This document shows, piece by piece, positions 24,173 through 32,800 of a DNA stretch of 64,000 bases. Source of the stretch: Strongyloides papillosus (taxonomy: Eukaryota > Nematoda > Chromadorea > Rhabditida > Strongyloididae); assembly GCA_005656395.1 (NCBI GenBank), contig SRSI01000050.1, positions 3,968,001 through 4,032,000 of the forward strand. The letters run 5' to 3'. Position numbers and translations under genes: made by a program. Position 1 is the stretch's first letter; the number at the start of each line of letters is the position of its first letter. The notes beneath the pieces are model-generated. The model saw nothing but the letters and a program-made list of their open reading frames with translations. It ran no database searches and was not told the DNA's origin.

Positions 24173-27100
24173 TTACCATTCAAGATACATGGAAAATAAC
24201 ATTTTAATCATCTTCCAATACTTTAAAATATAGTGGACAAAAAAGGGCCAAATCGATAGGAAAAATATTATTTTCCATAGCGTTGAGTTGGGCATTCTTT
24301 TACTGATATTTTTATCTTTCTCCTTATCAATTAACATTTTTTTCATAATATTATTTTGTTCAATAACTGTGTTGGTTAATTTAACAACATCATTACTTAA
24401 TTCCAATGTTTTCTTTTCTAGTAAATTAATAAAACTAGAAAATGTTTTTGTAAATATTTTAATTGTATCCTCAGAGAAAGATTTATTTTCAGATAAAGGT
24501 GGTTGAAGCTTTGTTAACGACTCAAATTCCATGTCTTCAGTAGCATCAATATAATCACCATCATTACTCTTAACTTCTTCTTCAATTATTTGAGTTTGTT
24601 TCTTCTCTTTGGGTAAAATATTATTTTGATTATCACTTGTTACAGGATTATGCATTGAACGTCCTAATATTTTAAATGCCGGTTCAAGAACATCCTCTAA
24701 ATTATGATCTTTTTCTAACTTTAAAAAGTATTCCATCCCATAAGCTTCAATTGTGTCGTCTATCTGTTTATTAAACAACTCTAAATATTTTTTCATGGAA
24801 GTTTCTTTGTCCATTGAACCAAGTTTATTCCATGCATCCCATTTATATTTTTCTACAACATTCCAAAATGACGGCTGTTCTTGATCACATGGACCAATTG
24901 TTGATTGTTTAAAAAGTGAATAATAAGATAATTTTGTCTCATTAGATGTTGATATGGGTCCTAAAAATTAATTTTATTAGTTTATTGATAATTATACCAG
25001 GGATATCGTAGATATCCTGCAAGTATAATTTATATTATATAAGATACTAACGTAGTGAGATTGCTTTGCATAACGCGGTCTTTTCCTTGGATTTAGTCCT
25101 TTTCTTGCACGGAATTTCGGAATTCCGTACAGTTTTGGTGGTGCGCCACTATTTAATCAGATTTTTGTAAGTGATAAGGTGATACTGTACTCGTAAGGTG
25201 TGGGAACAATAATTTAACACAACAAGATTTATTATAATTAATTATATATACTCGTACATGTAACCTGGTGATATAAGGGAGTAAATATTAATGGTATTTG
25301 ATCAGCAAGTAGCTGGGTGATAGATAATTAATAATATTACAATAATTAATTAAGTATAAGTAATAATTCGGATTAAATTTTGATGGGTGGGTACATACGT
25401 TAGTATCTTATATAATATAAATTATACTTGCAGGATATCTACGATATCCCTGGTATAATTATCAATTATATGTCGATACTAACGTAGTGAGATTGCTTAT
25501 TTGTAGGAGAGAACAGTAGCACCGAAATTATTCCCAATTTCCTTATGATAAAACTTAAAGAAGGAGTGTTCAGATGCCCAGTTAATAGCTTCTATCATAT
25601 TTGTAATAGACCCTGCTATTTCATAGTATTTTGATGCAGCAGCTCCCCTGATGTTGTGTGGTCTACCTATATCTAAGCCAGCTGTTAGGTAGTAATTATA
25701 GATCCATCTTCCTAGTGTAGTTCCAGTGACATTTTTGTGTGGCTTGAAGTAACTTATCCACAGATTTTGAGAAGTGCGTATAGGCTCCGTACGCTTTAAG
25801 TACAAGGATAGGGCGGTGAGTGGGCATAAGCTCGGATTTGCATATTTTTGAATGTGCATTCTGTGGAATTTGTGAGTGGCTGTAGAATTTTTTGATCTTC
25901 CCGGGATTGTGAAATTAGCCCATGCATCCGAGAGGGTCATATGATCTAGAGACATTCTAGCAAGCTCGTTCATCCTTTGTGGCGATACAATGGAGATCAG
26001 AGTAATTGTTGTAAACGTCAAATCTTTGATAGACATTTCCATTGAGGCTGGGTTGTTTTCAATATGTCTCAGAATGATGTCCAAGTCAAATGTCATGTAT
26101 TTTTGAATATCATGATTGTAGTTATTCACTTGGATCCCTTTTATGAGTTTGCTTAGCAATGTTTTTTCATGGGATGAGAAGGTTACCTTACGTAACTTTG
26201 CTATGGCTACTAGTGAATTCTTTATTGTATTAACTGTAGATGGAGCGGCACTGGTAGCTATCTTTGATAGATATTTGGTGAGATTCTTAAAGGAGAAGTG
26301 TTCATCCTTTATTCCATTTTCTTTACAGAAGTTAAGGTAATTTCTCAAATGAGTGGAATAGGATTTTTGAGTGTTAACTGAGTAAGATTGTTGAATGGAT
26401 TGTGAAACTTCGGGATCCATGTCACTCAGTGCGACTTGAAGAAAATTCGGAAAAGTCCCACTTTGTGCTTTCGGTTCTTCATTGGAGTTGCACAGTCTGG
26501 AAAGTTAACTATATTATAACCATATAATTGTAGGATAGGGTCCCCGAATTGGGATATTAAAACTGGAAAATAATTTTGATTTTCCCACATTAGGGCTACC
26601 AGCCAAAGATTGCACTTGTCGGTACCCGCTTTACGCAGTACTCTGAGTACTTGATTACATGGGGGAAATGCTATTACTTCCTCATCAATTAAACCCTGCC
26701 AGTTGAATGAGTAGGCATTTCTTCTAAACGCTCGGTTATCATCAAATAACGTTACAAATTTATCACGAAATTTATTTTCATAAGATGCAAACAGATCAAC
26801 CGAAATTATTACATTAAATTTATTTAAAAGAAATTCCTTAATTTCTTCTCTTGCCTTTATAGTTAGAGTTGCTTCTGTTGGGCCTTGTAGGGTAACGGGC
26901 ATTGTTCGGGAAAGGCGATCTGCCACCTGATTGTAGGATCCTGGAATATGGTATAAGTTAATATATAGCCTGTGCTCGTAAAAGAAATCGAGTAGCTTTT
27001 CCGTCTCCGATGAGAGAAATATTTTATTAACACTTCCTTTATTATGAACCAACGCTAGGGTAGTTGTATTGTCACAGTAAATGTTAACTATTTTATTATA

Positions 27101-29364
27101 TGTATTTTGCAAAAGCCCGAAGCACGTGAAGGATAAGGCCATTAGTTCCTTCTCATTAATATGTTTAGATAATAAGTCGTCCGTAAAGTACCCTTGGACG
27201 CTTTGGGAAGTGTAATCAGGAAAATATACTATTCCTCCATAACTAACATTACATGCGTCTGTGTAAACCTCTATGCTCGCGTGGTCCTGATTATATCGCA
27301 GCCCATTGGTGGCTTCTATGTTATTGATATACCATGCTAGACCTTGCCTAATTTCCGTTGTTATATTCACATACCTATTGTAACTTGGAGGAAACCCTAT
27401 ACATTTATTTACGGCGCGTTGGAGTGGACGTGCTTTGATTCTTGTTAAGAAGTTTGCATAGGATGAGAATTCTATCATGCCTAATAAGCTATAAAGCTGA
27501 CGTGCAACTACCCTCTTGAGATTTGAGATGTGACGGGCTGCTTTAATAATGTTATCCAGCTTATCCTGGGGGAGGCGAAGTTCCTCTTTAAGTGTATCTA
27601 TCACTAAACCTCGATATTTTATTATATATTTAGGTGACAACTCACTCTTTTTCTCGTTAATGGAGAATCCAGCTGCACGTAACAAATTCATGCAGTATTC
27701 GGTATGACGTGTTAACAGATCCTTATCCGTATGAGTGATTAGAAAATCATCGTAAAATCTCGTCATTTTTATACCGTTGGCCCTTATCGTGGCGGTTAGG
27801 GTGTTTGTTATTCTATAAAATAGTCTTGGTGCTGAACTAGCTCCAAAGGGCAATACAAGGTAAATGTATGTTTTATTATTCCACCTGAATCCTAAGTATT
27901 CAGTTTGATGTGGTCGTACTGCACAGCTGTGGTATGCTGCGGATAGGTCAATAGAAGTTAAGAAGGCTTTAGGCTCGAGAAGATCCGTTACATCTTTTAT
28001 CGACTCACATTTAAAACTAAAATGTTGTATGTAATCATTTAGTGAAGAAAGGTCTAGTACTAATCTCATTTTTTGAAGTGGTTACTACCATTAGAGGGCT
28101 GATCCATTTGGGATTGTCGTGCTCTTTTATACTGTTGGAGCGGAGGAGATCTTTTATCTCATTTTCAATAAACTGTTCTTCTTCCTTTGAAGAGAATTTA
28201 TTCTTACCTATCTTATGCTGTGTTGGCTCACATAAGATACCTATATCTACACCGTTTATTATGTAATCAAGTAGCACCGTATCGGTTGGCGCAATCTTTT
28301 GCCAGAATGGTAGGCATTGGTGTATTGTATTGGGGGGCATGTTTGGGTTGATTATAACGTACCTTTCCGGCTCGATGTTAGCCGTATTATTGTAAGATCT
28401 TTTTCTGTTTTCCCTTTGGATAAACGAGAGGAGATCCTGTGGTGTATCGGCCACATTCTTGAATAATGCTTCGGCATGCTTAGGAAGTATTGAGATTCTT
28501 TCAGAACTATCCATACGAGTTACCTTCTCTTCCATATCGAGAGGTACACTGGGAAGCCCTTTGTTGAATTTGGGTGAGAAGTTTCTAAAGGCGACTTCTC
28601 TACGTATGTCACTTAATCCGTCGACAACATACTTGATATTAATGAGGGCACTGAGTACGGCACTTTTGTTATCTCCTGTTGCAGCTTCAACATTGTGCGA
28701 TAACATACAGACTGACTGGAGTAGGTGATCCTGCATTTTGGCAAGGTTGCTGTCTACTGACCTCATTTTTAATTTAGAGTAGTATGGGGTGCTGAAGGCG
28801 GGAGCGAGAAACTGGAGGTCTTGGTGAACGCCCATTCTATCAGTGATGCTCTCAATGGTTTCATGTGATATTCTTTTGCAGGAGAATATTTTGGATACCG
28901 CTTTCATACCTTGTTCAGATAACGTCATTGACTTTTTATTGTGCAATAGAGCGTTGATAAGTTGGTCATCGGCACTTTCTTCTGCCGGCTGTTGAGTTGA
29001 ATTGTCAAACAGACCCAGTATTTCATTATTATCAGGTTCTTCAGCCATTTGGAACTTGATTCGGCAACGATTTTGTTAGATATTAGTAATAATAACGACA
29101 AAATTCAAGGAAAAGAAAAAACTGATTAAATAGTGGCGCACCACCAAAACTGTACGGAATTCCGAAATTCCGTGCAAGAAAAGGACTAAATCCAAGGAAA
29201 AGACCGCGTTATGCAAAGCAATCTCACTACGTTAGTATCGACATATAATAGAAAATAAAATATATTCGATTACCTTCTTTAGGAAGATTCTGAATTATCT
29301 TTACAGCAGCCAAGAACATTTCTTCTAATGAATACTTTTCTTCTTCATTTTTTTCAATAAACAT
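24173..29364 (-). CDS. Membrane-anchored acyl-CoA-binding protein (ACBD5/MAA-1 type), intron carries a retrotransposon
   Basis: Two exons: 29364-29274 (starting MFIEKNEEEKYS) and 24960-24173, together 292 residues. The acyl-CoA-binding domain spans the junction at about residues 12-100: FLAAVKIIQNLPKEG from exon 1, then YYSLFKQSTIGPC and KYKWDAWNKLGSM from exon 2, matching ACBP helices 1-3 with the acyl-CoA-contact Tyr/Lys positions. An acidic linker and a coiled-coil-like stretch follow. A C-terminal membrane helix (IIFFLSIWPFFVHYIL) makes it tail-anchored, as in ACBD5 and C. elegans MAA-1. Such proteins bind long-chain acyl-CoA at peroxisome, ER or endosome membranes. The 4313-nt intron holds a DIRS element in the same orientation; without it the intron would be 49 nt. 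Confidence 0.9.
25043..25160 (+). repeat. DIRS left inverted terminal repeat
   Basis: 118 bp starting GATACTAACGTAGTGAGATT and ending ATTTAATCAG. It is the exact reverse complement of 29122-29239, with no mismatch found by eye. An outer extension of 57 bp (24986-25042) lies outside it. Confidence 0.92.
25161..25395. other. Non-coding DIRS interior between left ITR and internal complementary region
   Basis: About 235 bp without an open frame, AT-rich. This is the element's 3' untranslated part, downstream of the recombinase. Confidence 0.6.
25396..25498 (-). repeat. DIRS internal complementary region
   Basis: This 103-bp stretch is the reverse complement of the element's two outer ends placed side by side. 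Positions 25408-25464 match the left outer extension (24986-25042) inverted. The remainder to 25498 matches the right end, including CGACATATAAT and the start of the ITR. In DIRS1-like elements this region templates the joining of ends into a circle during replication. It overlaps the stop codon of the recombinase frame. Confidence 0.88.
25497..26420 (-). CDS. DIRS tyrosine recombinase
   Basis: 307 residues. The catalytic signature of the tyrosine-recombinase fold is visible: Arg in IVSPQRMNELARM (R149), H-x-x-R in HNIRGAAAS (H255, R258), His in NWASEHSFFKFYHKE (H285) and the nucleophile Tyr in FYHKE (Y291). An N-terminal core-binding region (YSVNTQKSYSTHLRNYL) resembles the SAM-like domain of phage-type integrases. 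The enzyme would integrate a circular DNA intermediate. The frame is intact, and its stop lies inside the internal complementary region. Six bases separate its start from the upstream RT frame's stop. Confidence 0.9.
   Translation of the reverse strand: MDPEVSQSIQQSYSVNTQKSYSTHLRNYLNFCKENGIKDEHFSFKNLTKYLSKIATSAAPSTVNTIKNSLVAIAKLRKVTFSSHEKTLLSKLIKGIQVNNYNHDIQKYMTFDLDIILRHIENNPASMEMSIKDLTFTTITLISIVSPQRMNELARMSLDHMTLSDAWANFTIPGRSKNSTATHKFHRMHIQKYANPSLCPLTALSLYLKRTEPIRTSQNLWISYFKPHKNVTGTTLGRWIYNYYLTAGLDIGRPHNIRGAAASKYYEIAGSITNMIEAINWASEHSFFKFYHKEIGNNFGATVLSYK
26426..28069 (-). CDS. DIRS reverse transcriptase / RNase H / methylase-like polyprotein
   Basis: 547 residues. RT motifs in order are RLVLDLSSLN, the motif A Asp in TSIDLSAAYHS, motif B LPFGASSAPRLF and motif C FYDDFLI (the YxDD box). 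RNase H follows with YTDACNVSYGGI, NEKELMALSF, IYCDNTTTLALVHNKGS and HIPGSYNQVADRLSR. The C-terminal part (IAFPPCNQVLRVL, LWLVALMWENQNYFPVL) matches the Dam-methylase-like segment typical of DIRS-group elements. RT motifs 1 and 2 lie upstream in the gag-like frame, so this frame alone lacks the start of the RT fingers. Its first ATG may not be the true translation start. Confidence 0.9.
   Translation of the reverse strand: MRLVLDLSSLNDYIQHFSFKCESIKDVTDLLEPKAFLTSIDLSAAYHSCAVRPHQTEYLGFRWNNKTYIYLVLPFGASSAPRLFYRITNTLTATIRANGIKMTRFYDDFLITHTDKDLLTRHTEYCMNLLRAAGFSINEKKSELSPKYIIKYRGLVIDTLKEELRLPQDKLDNIIKAARHISNLKRVVARQLYSLLGMIEFSSYANFLTRIKARPLQRAVNKCIGFPPSYNRYVNITTEIRQGLAWYINNIEATNGLRYNQDHASIEVYTDACNVSYGGIVYFPDYTSQSVQGYFTDDLLSKHINEKELMALSFTCFGLLQNTYNKIVNIYCDNTTTLALVHNKGSVNKIFLSSETEKLLDFFYEHRLYINLYHIPGSYNQVADRLSRTMPVTLQGPTEATLTIKAREEIKEFLLNKFNVIISVDLFASYENKFRDKFVTLFDDNRAFRRNAYSFNWQGLIDEEVIAFPPCNQVLRVLRKAGTDKCNLWLVALMWENQNYFPVLISQFGDPILQLYGYNIVNFPDCATPMKNRKHKVGLFRIFFKSH
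28035..29048 (-). CDS. DIRS gag-like protein plus N-terminal part of RT
   Basis: 337 residues. The first roughly 230 are helical and polar without a zinc knuckle, as in DIRS-type Gag. From FWQKIAPTDTVLLDYIINGV onward the sequence is the conserved lead-in to DIRS RT, including EIKDLLRSNSIKE and PKWISPLMVVTTSK. The frame then leaves RT coding at an A6 run and ends at 28035 within the next frame, overlapping it by 35 nt. The continuation of RT lies in the other frame immediately after the run. It starts at ATG 29048, about 75 bp inside the right ITR. Confidence 0.85.
   Translation of the reverse strand: MAEEPDNNEILGLFDNSTQQPAEESADDQLINALLHNKKSMTLSEQGMKAVSKIFSCKRISHETIESITDRMGVHQDLQFLAPAFSTPYYSKLKMRSVDSNLAKMQDHLLQSVCMLSHNVEAATGDNKSAVLSALINIKYVVDGLSDIRREVAFRNFSPKFNKGLPSVPLDMEEKVTRMDSSERISILPKHAEALFKNVADTPQDLLSFIQRENRKRSYNNTANIEPERYVIINPNMPPNTIHQCLPFWQKIAPTDTVLLDYIINGVDIGILCEPTQHKIGKNKFSSKEEEQFIENEIKDLLRSNSIKEHDNPKWISPLMVVTTSKNEISTRPFFTK
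29122..29239 (-). repeat. DIRS right inverted terminal repeat
   Basis: Exact inverted copy of 25043-25160, followed by a 10-bp outer extension (CGACATATAAT region) to 29249. It marks the 5' end of the element's sense strand. Confidence 0.92.
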
Positions 29365-29815: not shown

Positions 29816-32800
29816 TTAGACCCGTGATGAGGATTTAATTGATCCTCTCTCACCATCATTTAATTCATCTGTGTACTGATAAATACAAATATAGCAATCA
29901 GCAAGTAGTCTCTTTAATAAAGGATCTGTATCTTGCTGTAGTATTGGTAAAGACCATCCTGACTGTGATAACATTTCATACAAATTTTTAAAACCTTCAT
30001 CAGTTAACCATCTAGATAAATTTGGCACTTGTTTAACGGTAGGCACATTATAACCTTCAGATAGACCTTCGCGATCAGCCATAGAATCAAAAAATACCCA
30101 ACGATCGCTTTCAGGTGTTGATGAATTAACGTTACAATTTACAAATGATACATAATGTGATGTTTCAATACATAAAACAGCAGATAATTTCAATAAAATT
30201 TTTTGTGGTGATGATATTTCCTTTGTGATAACTTCACATGGAACATGTGTGCTTGAATTAATGTCACTATGTGCTTCTTTAAAACATCTCGAGCAATAAA
30301 ATACATCTTTTAAATAACATTCTTTCGTTAAAAAGCATTCAGCACATTTTTTTGTAGCAGGAAGCCTCTTGCAAAGTCTACATATCTTCGTATTAGTATA
30401 TACAACATTTGAAATGTCCAATATCATTGTTGGAAGAATTTTCTCAAATATCTTTACTTCACCGCTTCTTGGTAATTGAATAATTAGCAAATTAGGAATT
30501 TCACCAAATTCAACAGTTGATGAAAAAATTGAACGATCAAATAAATATTGAAGATTCATCAATTTTCTTTGTTGAAATGTCCATGAATCATCTGCTATTA
30601 ATGGGCAAATAAATGTATCGTGAATTTTGCCATCATTAATATTACGTAGTCTCAAGAAAGGTTTTATCTTAAATACTTTTTCAAAAAGAGCATTCATAAA
30701 TTCTTCAGGATCTTTTTCGTTTTCTGTCATACCTATTTGATCATTTAAAATTTTTCCTAGTAGCACTCTTAGTTTCAAAACATGATCAGCCCTAACAAAA
30801 TGAAATTTTCTTAGTGGATAAACTATTTCATTTTTCAAAATTTTCTGTACTTCATTAAATTCTTTTATATCATCAGGTGTCTTTTTTTTCTCCAGAATAA
30901 TTGAATCAAATTCAGTCGACTGGAGAAACATTGAATACAATGTTGCATCTAAATAACAACTATTATTATGACCTTGTATACCCTTAAATCTTCCAATTAG
31001 TGAATCATAAACCTTAGAAGGTTGTGATGGTTTTTCTTCTATTCCACTATCAATATTACCAAAGTTTTTTATCATTGGACCACCTATTTGCTCATGTTGA
31101 AATGATTCTGAATATGATGGTGGCGGACCAATAGGTTCTGTAGGCATGGATGATGAATAAAGTGGTGTTTTAATAGTCAATGCCAATAGCGGTACAATAG
31201 CAGTAGAATTATAATTTTTTTCAATTTTAGATTGTACTTTGATTGGAATAATTGCAGCCAAGTCTTTTGTTATTTTTTTCCATGTTGGCGGAGTTCTATC
31301 ATTAATTATCGTTATTATAGCATAACATTTATTATCATTAGCTATGAAAGAATGTTCAAAGACTGCATCTTTTTTGTAGTCAAGATATCTTACTATAACT
31401 TGATCTTCTGGTTTTAATTTTCTTTTTAATTCACTTTCTGCTATTTCTTTAGCAACCATCTCTTTATTTAATTTTTTTTGATGTTCGTAATCAGAAATTT
31501 TCCAACAAGTTTTTGAATGAACAAAAGCAGCTTTACCATCATCACATTGGAAATACTTTTTCCCATTTAATTCACCATTTCCGAAACCAACATCGTCATC
31601 ATCACACTGTATACCAATGAAATTATCCAAACTTGGTGATGATAATAATCCATAGTATTTCACTGTTCCGAAACGTTTTCCACCATCTTCATCACAAAAT
31701 ACTATACGTTCCGTAATATCAAATGATGCTCGAGTATAGTTGCTAATAACGTTTGATGGAATATATGGTATAATTTTACTTCCTGTTTTTGTATGTGATT
31801 TTGGTTTTATTAAATCTATTCCTTTATTAATACTTTTGCCAAGAGCTTTACGAAACGAATGATCTTCTTTTTTTTTAATATTTACTGTTCCATTTTGCAA
31901 TGGTTTATTTACGTTACTATAATATTGTTGGGATAATCCATCATACGTATTTGATGGTGTTATTATACCATTTGTAGTCTCTAAACCATATGTACCGTAA
32001 ATAGATTTCATTTGGTATTTTGTTTGTGGAAATTGCATACTATTTGATGTTGATATATTACTTTGATATCTAATTATATTAAAAAAAGTTTCATAAAATC
32101 AATAAAAATAATGTTAAAAAAATACCTATCATAATTTGCTGAATATTGTGGATTTCTCAAAGCACTTTGACTCGAAGCTCTTTGTCTAATATGAATTCTA
32201 TCACCGTTTCTTACAATATTTGGAGAGATATTTGAGGAAGGATAGTTAGAATATATTTTTTCTGGCCCTAAGATGTAAGTCGGTCTTGTTGATCCATTAG
32301 TTGCATAAAATTGTGAGTTCCCATATACATTTTTATACATACTACCCTAAAATAAATAAAATAAGAATATATTTTTTTGCTAAAAACATTAAGTTAAATA
32401 TTTTTAATATGTTAGGAAAAAAGAAATACACTTTAATAAAGTTTATTGTTAAAATAATTGAAGTGATAAATAATAAATTAAGATTAGTAAATATTTAAAA
32501 CATTCTGTTAATTGTTTGCGTCTATTAATAATTATATTATTAAATAATAGTAAATTTCAAAAATCAATGACATTTAACAAAAGTAAAATACACATTGTTT
32601 TCATTTAATTAAACATCAAATAACAAAATTTTAGCCCAACCTTAATACAACAAATTTTTACTAAAAATGGTTTATTTTAATTAGGGGAAAATATTTTCAA
32701 TATAATCATTTGATGTTTCTCTCTTAACATTTTAAAATAAATATGTTTATATAAAATCTATATACATATCAAGTTTCACTCTCTCTCTACTCACCTCTTA

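Follow-up and report, generated by a model that had tools for sequence, protein, structure and literature searches.

A complete DIRS1-like retrotransposon family with inverted terminal repeats in the nematode Strongyloides papillosus

The anatomy of DIRS1-like retrotransposons was defined by Piednoel et al. (2011), and where that paper deals with nematodes it reports no well-conserved DIRS1-like copies in 12 species (PMC3266345). Szitenberg et al. (2014) record Dirs1-like elements in Enoplia and Dorylaimia, and their account of Chromadoria gives a single marginal, partial Dirs1-like copy, in Pristionchus, and a count of 0 YRE in S. ratti (PMC4157794). DIRS1-like elements were nearly absent in that 2014 survey from the nematode class to which C. 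elegans and Strongyloides belong. Automatic annotation gives 221, 412, 460 and 17 'DIRS' copies in four Meloidogyne species (PMC5465968), counts which qualify the absence from Chromadoria, and Meloidogyne 'DIRS' is also mentioned in PMC7593179. In the reniform nematode, 'Gypsy/DIRS1' is the heading of a repeat-annotation table, given without anatomy in the part of the paper that holds it (PMC7960049). For Strongyloides, the word DIRS is absent from the retrieved text of a 2023 omics review (PMC10676819), a synteny paper (PMC10676810) and a study of small RNAs in S. ratti (PMC9203780). We found no description of DIRS elements in this genus in the open-access literature searched.

We identified a DIRS1-like element of 4,265 bp in Strongyloides papillosus, at positions 24985-29249 of a 64,000-nucleotide stretch of contig SRSI01000050.1 (the whole stretch of DNA that was analysed, called the window below). 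The first-pass annotation, made from the letters alone, had proposed a complete DIRS1-like element in a nematode at 24986..29249. These coordinates are correct to one base, the coding strand is the minus strand, and the identification is borne out by an arrangement of inverted terminal repeats (ITRs) and an internal complementary region (ICR), the ITRs having been measured in all 22 near-full copies of the family. The element consists, in sense order, of the left ITR, a gag-like ORF, pol (with RT, RNase H and a methylase-like, or MT-like, region), the tyrosine recombinase (YR), the ICR, the right ITR and a right extension (rE). It begins with ATTATATG and ends with ATTATCAA, and the alignment of copies shows that the same start and end are kept by all 22 near-full copies. 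The extent is further fixed by the recovery of both ends among different flanks in each of these copies and by element-free paralogous sites. Together these observations support a complete DIRS1-like tyrosine-recombinase retrotransposon with the ITR/ICR plan and without split direct repeats.

The left ITR (134 bp, 29116-29249) and the right ITR (25034-25166), both on the minus strand, share a core of 118 bp without a mismatch (29122-29239 against 25043-25160). This perfect match, already seen in the first-pass annotation, stands well clear of chance, as exact inverted matches reached 22 at most when the element was simulated 200 times with a first-order Markov model. When mismatches are allowed the ITR spans 134 bp, and the window copy agrees at 130 of 133 aligned positions. 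The same 130/133 is found in 19 of the 22 copies, and the other three match at 127/133, 129/133 and 128/131. The rE (49 bp, 24985-25033, minus strand) is matched only by the ICR. An internal complementary region had also been claimed, and it is present without mismatch in the window copy: its left part (34 nt, 25465-25498, minus strand) is complementary to the left end, its right part (70 nt, 25396-25465, minus strand) is complementary to the right end including the rE, and the two parts share a single base. Since these matches cover the final 70 nt at the right end and the initial 34 nt at the left end, the ICR spells the junction of a circle, being the exact reverse complement of the predicted junction TATCAATTATATG. 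In the window copy the ICR and rE were compared base by base, and for the other copies they were taken from the matches listed in the genome search.

The PAT elements of nematodes (Pat1 of Panagrellus, and those of Caenorhabditis and Pristionchus) are also RT-RNase H-YR retroelements. However, the pages of Szitenberg et al. (2014) that describe them give them split direct repeats and give Pat1 a Gag zinc finger (PMC4157794), neither of which was found here. The split direct repeats that mark PAT (A1-B1-A2-B2) were not found in the element, and the terminal and internal repeats of the window copy are all inverted, as the first-pass annotation had stressed in setting the two kinds of element apart; a CX2CX4HX4C zinc finger was not seen in the gag-like translation when it was read by eye. 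Membership of PAT by structure is therefore rejected. The inverted repeats and the aligned MT-like stretch also differ from Ngaro and VIPER elements, which have split direct repeats and no MT-like domain.

The gag-like ORF (346 aa, 28035-29048, minus strand) has its ATG at 29048 in a frame that is open from 29075, and no Pfam family matches it. The pol ORF (551 aa, 26426-28081, minus strand) holds the RT (about 27602-28033), RNase H (about 27035-27280) and the MT-like region (about 26612-26809), all on the same strand. The RT matches Pfam RVT_1 at 6.4e-18, and residues D45, D111 and D112 are invariant in an alignment of 12 pol proteins. The Pfam match of the RNase H is weak (0.12, below the cut-off), but the same alignment shows D275, E312, D337 and D388 to be invariant, so that both domains are confirmed as first read. 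We take the three RT residues to have catalytic roles, and the four others to have the corresponding roles in RNase H. The methylase-like segment aligns with a stretch annotated as Dam in relatives, but has no Pfam match in the window copy, and a Dam match was reached in one other family at an E of only 0.09. Its motif reads FPP here and NPP or CPP in several relatives, the cod protein excepted. To judge by the pol alignment, the segment is probably homologous to the Dam-annotated stretch of those relatives and degenerate.

The YR ORF (335 aa, 25497-26504, minus strand) has its tyrosine codon at 25548-25550. The window YR matches Pfam Phage_integrase (0.0024) and SAM-like (8e-5) profiles, both below the cut-off. 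We aligned six YRs that represent five families of this genome, broken or later-read YRs having been left out; R177, H283, R286, W309 and Y319 are invariant among them, and a profile of the six matches the XerC-like protein 4a8e at 5.2e-13 and Cre at about 1e-3. The R177, H283-x-x-R286 and Y319 residues align with the R, H-x-x-R and Y of 4a8e, which we take to be catalytic; W309 falls one place before a 4a8e histidine, presumably catalytic as well. The recombinase had been credited with all catalytic residues, and this holds for the conserved R, H-x-x-R and Y but not exactly for W309, which is one place off. An AlphaFold2 model of the YR is of modest confidence (mean pLDDT 71.6), with the last 55 residues poor, and it matches Cre and its derivative Tre (Foldseek 8e-9, TM 0.60). 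Homology searches at E 0.001 returned no YR homologues outside S. papillosus. The S. papillosus match is an integrase-domain protein that, over 215 residues, has 100% identity with the YR of a different family of this genome.

Other copies, which the first-pass annotation had suggested looking for, are present in the same genome. We identified at least 22 near-full copies with different flanks and one fragment in 58.2 Mb of sequence (79 contigs). Of the near-full copies, 18 matched end to end and four lack about 60-69 query bases within gag. The fragment is 96-98% alike to the family, is the only one among the matches listed, and was left out of all 22-copy counts. Pairwise difference over the 22 copies averages 0.40% and reaches 0.74% at most, and there are groups of three, four and four copies with no substitutions between them (some indels are present) at unrelated sites with different flanks. 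The identity of the ITRs had been read as a mark of recent insertion, a reading that does not stand: since the same 130/133 occurs in 19 of the 22 copies, including copies 0.74% apart, the match is a property of the family and not a measure of how old one insertion is. The zero-substitution groups at unrelated sites are the better sign of recency. The possibility that the ITR match is an artefact of assembly, also raised earlier, was rejected: the 22 copies have distinct flanks, and a public RT-domain protein of S. papillosus matches one copy at 99.8% identity over 444 residues. Searches with the pol protein returned two S. papillosus proteins at 99% identity and an S. venezuelensis match at 83%.

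In the window copy gag and pol lie in separate overlapping frames. Nine of the 22 copies have gag-pol as one frame of 882 codons, and in seven both this frame and the full 335-codon YR are open. The gag-pol region is not one open frame in the other 13, and in one of these it is broken only near the end. The gag/pol split is common to the three zero-substitution copies that include the window copy, and another frame-interrupting change is common to four zero-substitution copies. Because these interruptions are common to copies at unrelated sites, they suggest that interrupted copies have been mobilised in trans; frameshift translation and gene conversion are alternatives. Polymorphic sites in gag-pol are distributed 14/16/30 over codon positions 1/2/3 (21 copies, L022 left out), a mild sign of constraint, and in the YR they are distributed 7/7/5, with no constraint visible.

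Three copies (L019, L020 and L022) have in common a 61-bp deletion in gag that occurs on two backgrounds 24-28 substitutions apart, and a fourth (L021) has a different gag deletion that overlaps it. A spliced intron was considered as the cause of the 61-bp deletion and rejected, as the lost stretch does not end in AG. The presence of the deletion on two backgrounds suggests exchange between copies or template switching, and a fragile site is a further possible route.

The window copy lies in sense orientation within an intron of a gene with an acyl-CoA-binding-protein (ACBP) domain. The intron (24961-29273, minus strand) has GT...AG ends and measures 49 bp without the element. It separates exon 1 (29274-29364, minus strand) from exon 2 (24173-24960), which is on the same strand as the element. 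The joined exons match positions 1-75 of the 76 in the ACBP profile (E 8.5e-24), compared with positions 17-75 for exon 2 alone (2.4e-21). A neighbouring gene (window 29816-32098, minus strand) has a CAP-Gly match at 3.6e-11 and a ubiquitin-hydrolase match below the cut-off, and is presumably CYLD-like. At another locus, the right flank of copy L020 was seen by eye to place the copy a few bases upstream of an ATG that reads MKMELPNPYLVGAVSLFESLGKRI..., the start of what looks to us like an LSm1-type protein. The insertion there might affect expression of the adjoining LSm1-type-like gene.

The flanks of each of the 22 copies were joined and run against the genome in two queries. Scoring covered 40 of 345 candidates for the first query and 40 of 481 for the second, whose list is without several copies' own flanks. 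Element-free paralogous sites, another quantity that the first-pass annotation had proposed to look for, were found within the genome for at least seven of the 22 copies (L008, L011, L012, L016, L018, L021 and L022), a lower bound because only those candidates were scored. The best matches are 95-99% identical for six of the seven and 84% for L008. We read ten of these sites, four for L011 and one for each of the other six copies. The nine sites of the six close cases consist of the left flank, one A and the right flank, with nothing duplicated or lost, and the L008 site is too diverged to fix the junction. Insertion was thus precise and without target-site duplication at six insertions.

The target sites are biased over the 22 insertions. 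Position 0 is A in all 22 by definition, +1 is T in 17, +2 is A in 16 and T in 6, and +3 is A in 21. With A making up 38% and T 37.5% of the background, the bias has a P of 1.7e-4 for T at +1 and 2.4e-8 for A at +3. The circle reads A-T-T-A from the same point, and positions 0, +1 and +3 of the target tend to agree with it, the favoured target A-T-A/T-A corresponding to A-T-x-A of the circle.

A route of integration can be proposed from these features. A transcript of the sense strand (the minus strand of the window) would encode Gag, a Pol with RT, RNase H and MT-like regions, and the YR. The ICR, as the exact complement of both ends joined, could template the restoration of the ends and the closure of a circle. 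The YR would then recombine the circle junction TATCA-A-TTATATG with a short matching genomic site, A-T-A/T-A being favoured, and the outcome would be an insertion without target-site duplication. For this family we infer transcription, a circular intermediate, recombinase activity and present-day mobility.

Searches with pol and YR also identified further, very divergent DIRS loci in the genome, of which 12 were read (L029-L033 and L039-L045). By DNA, RT or YR they fall into seven groups besides the window family: L029/L031/L043, L030/L044, L032, L033/L045, L039/L042, L040 and L041. Terminal and internal repeats, inverted as in the DIRS1 plan, are found in 11 of the 12 loci, which lie on contigs C30, C2, C29, C19, C7, C42, C26, C12 and C50. 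The repeats were found directly in ten; the left repeat of L032 is just outside the stretch first read and was located by DNA search (135 bp, 99%). The repeats of L043 have decayed to 80-93%, and the relic L041 has none. In L040 gag and YR are retained, but the stretch of only about 850 bp that separates them is too short to hold pol. The ITR/ICR plan is therefore present in at least six further divergent families, or at least seven counting that of the window, and the predicted circle junctions of eight of the other loci are also centred on AATT, ATT or AAT. Beside the DIRS copy L040, the first 1 kb of contig C26 (L040:1-1062) contains 22-bp tandem units in opposite orientations on its two sides, possibly a subtelomeric or satellite structure.

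Close copies are few in each of these families: about 100% identity between L030 and L044 and between L033 and L045, and 92% between L039 and L042. DNA searches also found kin of L029 and L032 at 78-88% and diverged pieces at 66-85% for L029, L030, L033 and L040. Given the few close copies and the diverged pieces of the other families, DIRS elements look like old residents of this genome and the window family like a young burst. The loci point to a diverse set of DIRS elements in Strongyloides.

The relationships of the RT were examined in two trees. Of 114 pol rows, 106 entered the quick tree; the other eight, filled to less than 35%, were dropped (Haemonchus and both Coccomyxa proteins among them). 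This tree groups the rows of this genome with the S. venezuelensis relative (9 rows, 97 SH-aLRT). The careful tree used 56 hand-chosen rows, with the near-copy L031 and the fragment L041 left out; L040 is absent from every RT tree. In it, where branches are long, the seven Strongyloides rows group together (94/90) as sister to the PAT-like and DIRS1-like rows, and the 14 PAT-like rows form a 100/100 clade without any Strongyloides row. We assigned the labels PAT-like (Trichostrongylus, molluscs) and DIRS1-like (cod, Daphnia) by the named hosts, presuming that these reflect the element type, and not by the repeats. Placement of the RT and YR inside PAT, together with split direct repeats in other copies, had been named as an outcome that would count against the first-pass reading. 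The free tree leaves the element outside PAT, but an AU test does not reject PAT placement: p is 0.458 or 0.601 when the seven rows are held with 14 or 18 PAT-like rows, and 0.201 when the window element and its S. venezuelensis relative are held with core PAT. Holding the seven rows with the DIRS1-like rows is not rejected either (p 0.588). In two of the four tests the held tree is slightly better than the free one (p 0.601, by 2.56 log units, and p 0.588).

We tentatively suggest, as a reading that could well prove wrong, that Strongyloides has its own old and radiated DIRS clade with ITR/ICR repeats, outside canonical DIRS1 and PAT; that the inverted-repeat plan either goes back to the ancestor of the DIRS order or had more than one origin; and that interrupted gag/pol copies have spread in the youngest family, implying mobilisation in trans by intact copies. 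The AU tests would also allow descent from the PAT lineage with inverted repeats gained secondarily, so that the ITR/ICR plan is homoplasy, and the sections of Szitenberg et al. (2014) on this point report a Dirs1-like lineage among PAT and homoplasy of the repeats (PMC4157794). However, this history would have to be reconciled with the exclusion of Strongyloides rows from the 100/100 PAT-like clade of the free tree, with the ITR/ICR plan of seven divergent families in one genome, the window's included, and with a Gag in which no CCHC finger was seen by eye, although two mollusc PAT-like relatives (P0091 and P0095) carry one; we regard it as improbable. That the family is no old resident but recently entered the S. 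papillosus/S. venezuelensis lineage by horizontal transfer is unlikely in our judgement. Such an arrival would account for 22 near-identical copies accompanied by only one fragment (96-98%) among the matches listed, and Table 1 of the 2014 survey has no YRE for S. ratti (PMC4157794). However, S. venezuelensis has a relative with a protein identity of about 83-85%, diverged pieces of other DIRS families occur in the genome at 66-88% nucleotide identity, and the Strongyloides families tested group together in the RT tree.

That the element is a dead or assembly-generated repeat seems hardly credible. One copy near a contig end has clustered indels, and gag-pol is interrupted in 13 of the 22 copies, as such a repeat might be. 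However, all frames are open in seven copies, the 22 copies have distinct flanks, six insertions have precise junctions, and public S. papillosus proteins are 99-100% identical. We are highly confident that the family is one of DIRS1-like retrotransposons of autonomous type and has multiplied recently, with circle formation and YR integration as its proposed route.

The DIRS1-like family of Strongyloides is real, complete and young, of an ordinary type in an unexpected place. Its kind is already known, and the element is a new member of it and perhaps represents a new clade. A genome with at least seven families, one of them with 22 near-identical copies and element-free sites, offers an animal setting in which to check the circle-integration model, and the Strongyloides families bear on whether the inverted-repeat plan had a single or a repeated origin. 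Among nematodes, the elements of Romanomermis culicivorax and Enoplus brevis are also classed as Dirs1-like in the account of Dorylaimia and Enoplia in PMC4157794, and are likened to ours by description only. Meloidogyne belongs to the same suborder, Tylenchina, and its DIRS copies are annotated without anatomy in the part of PMC5465968 concerned, so that DIRS1-like and PAT elements are not told apart. The pol described here is very divergent, with mostly 22-42% identity to its matches outside Strongyloides. In contrast to metazoan DIRS1-like elements, gag and pol are fused in some copies; the two ICRs share one base, whereas three are reported for most DIRS1-like elements; and the length of 4,265 bp compares with a mean of 5,160 for such elements in the survey figures of PMC3266345. 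Among metazoan DIRS1-like elements, close counterparts are DpuDIRS3 (Daphnia pulex) and BmDIRS1 (Bombyx mori), for which the descriptions in PMC3266345 give, as here, ITRs with an rE and an ICR, the RT, RNase H, MT-like and YR domains, and an ATT start. In Table 3 of that source the rE of DpuDIRS3 is 50 bp, against 49 bp in the present element, and BmDIRS1 combines the ATT start with an ATA end.
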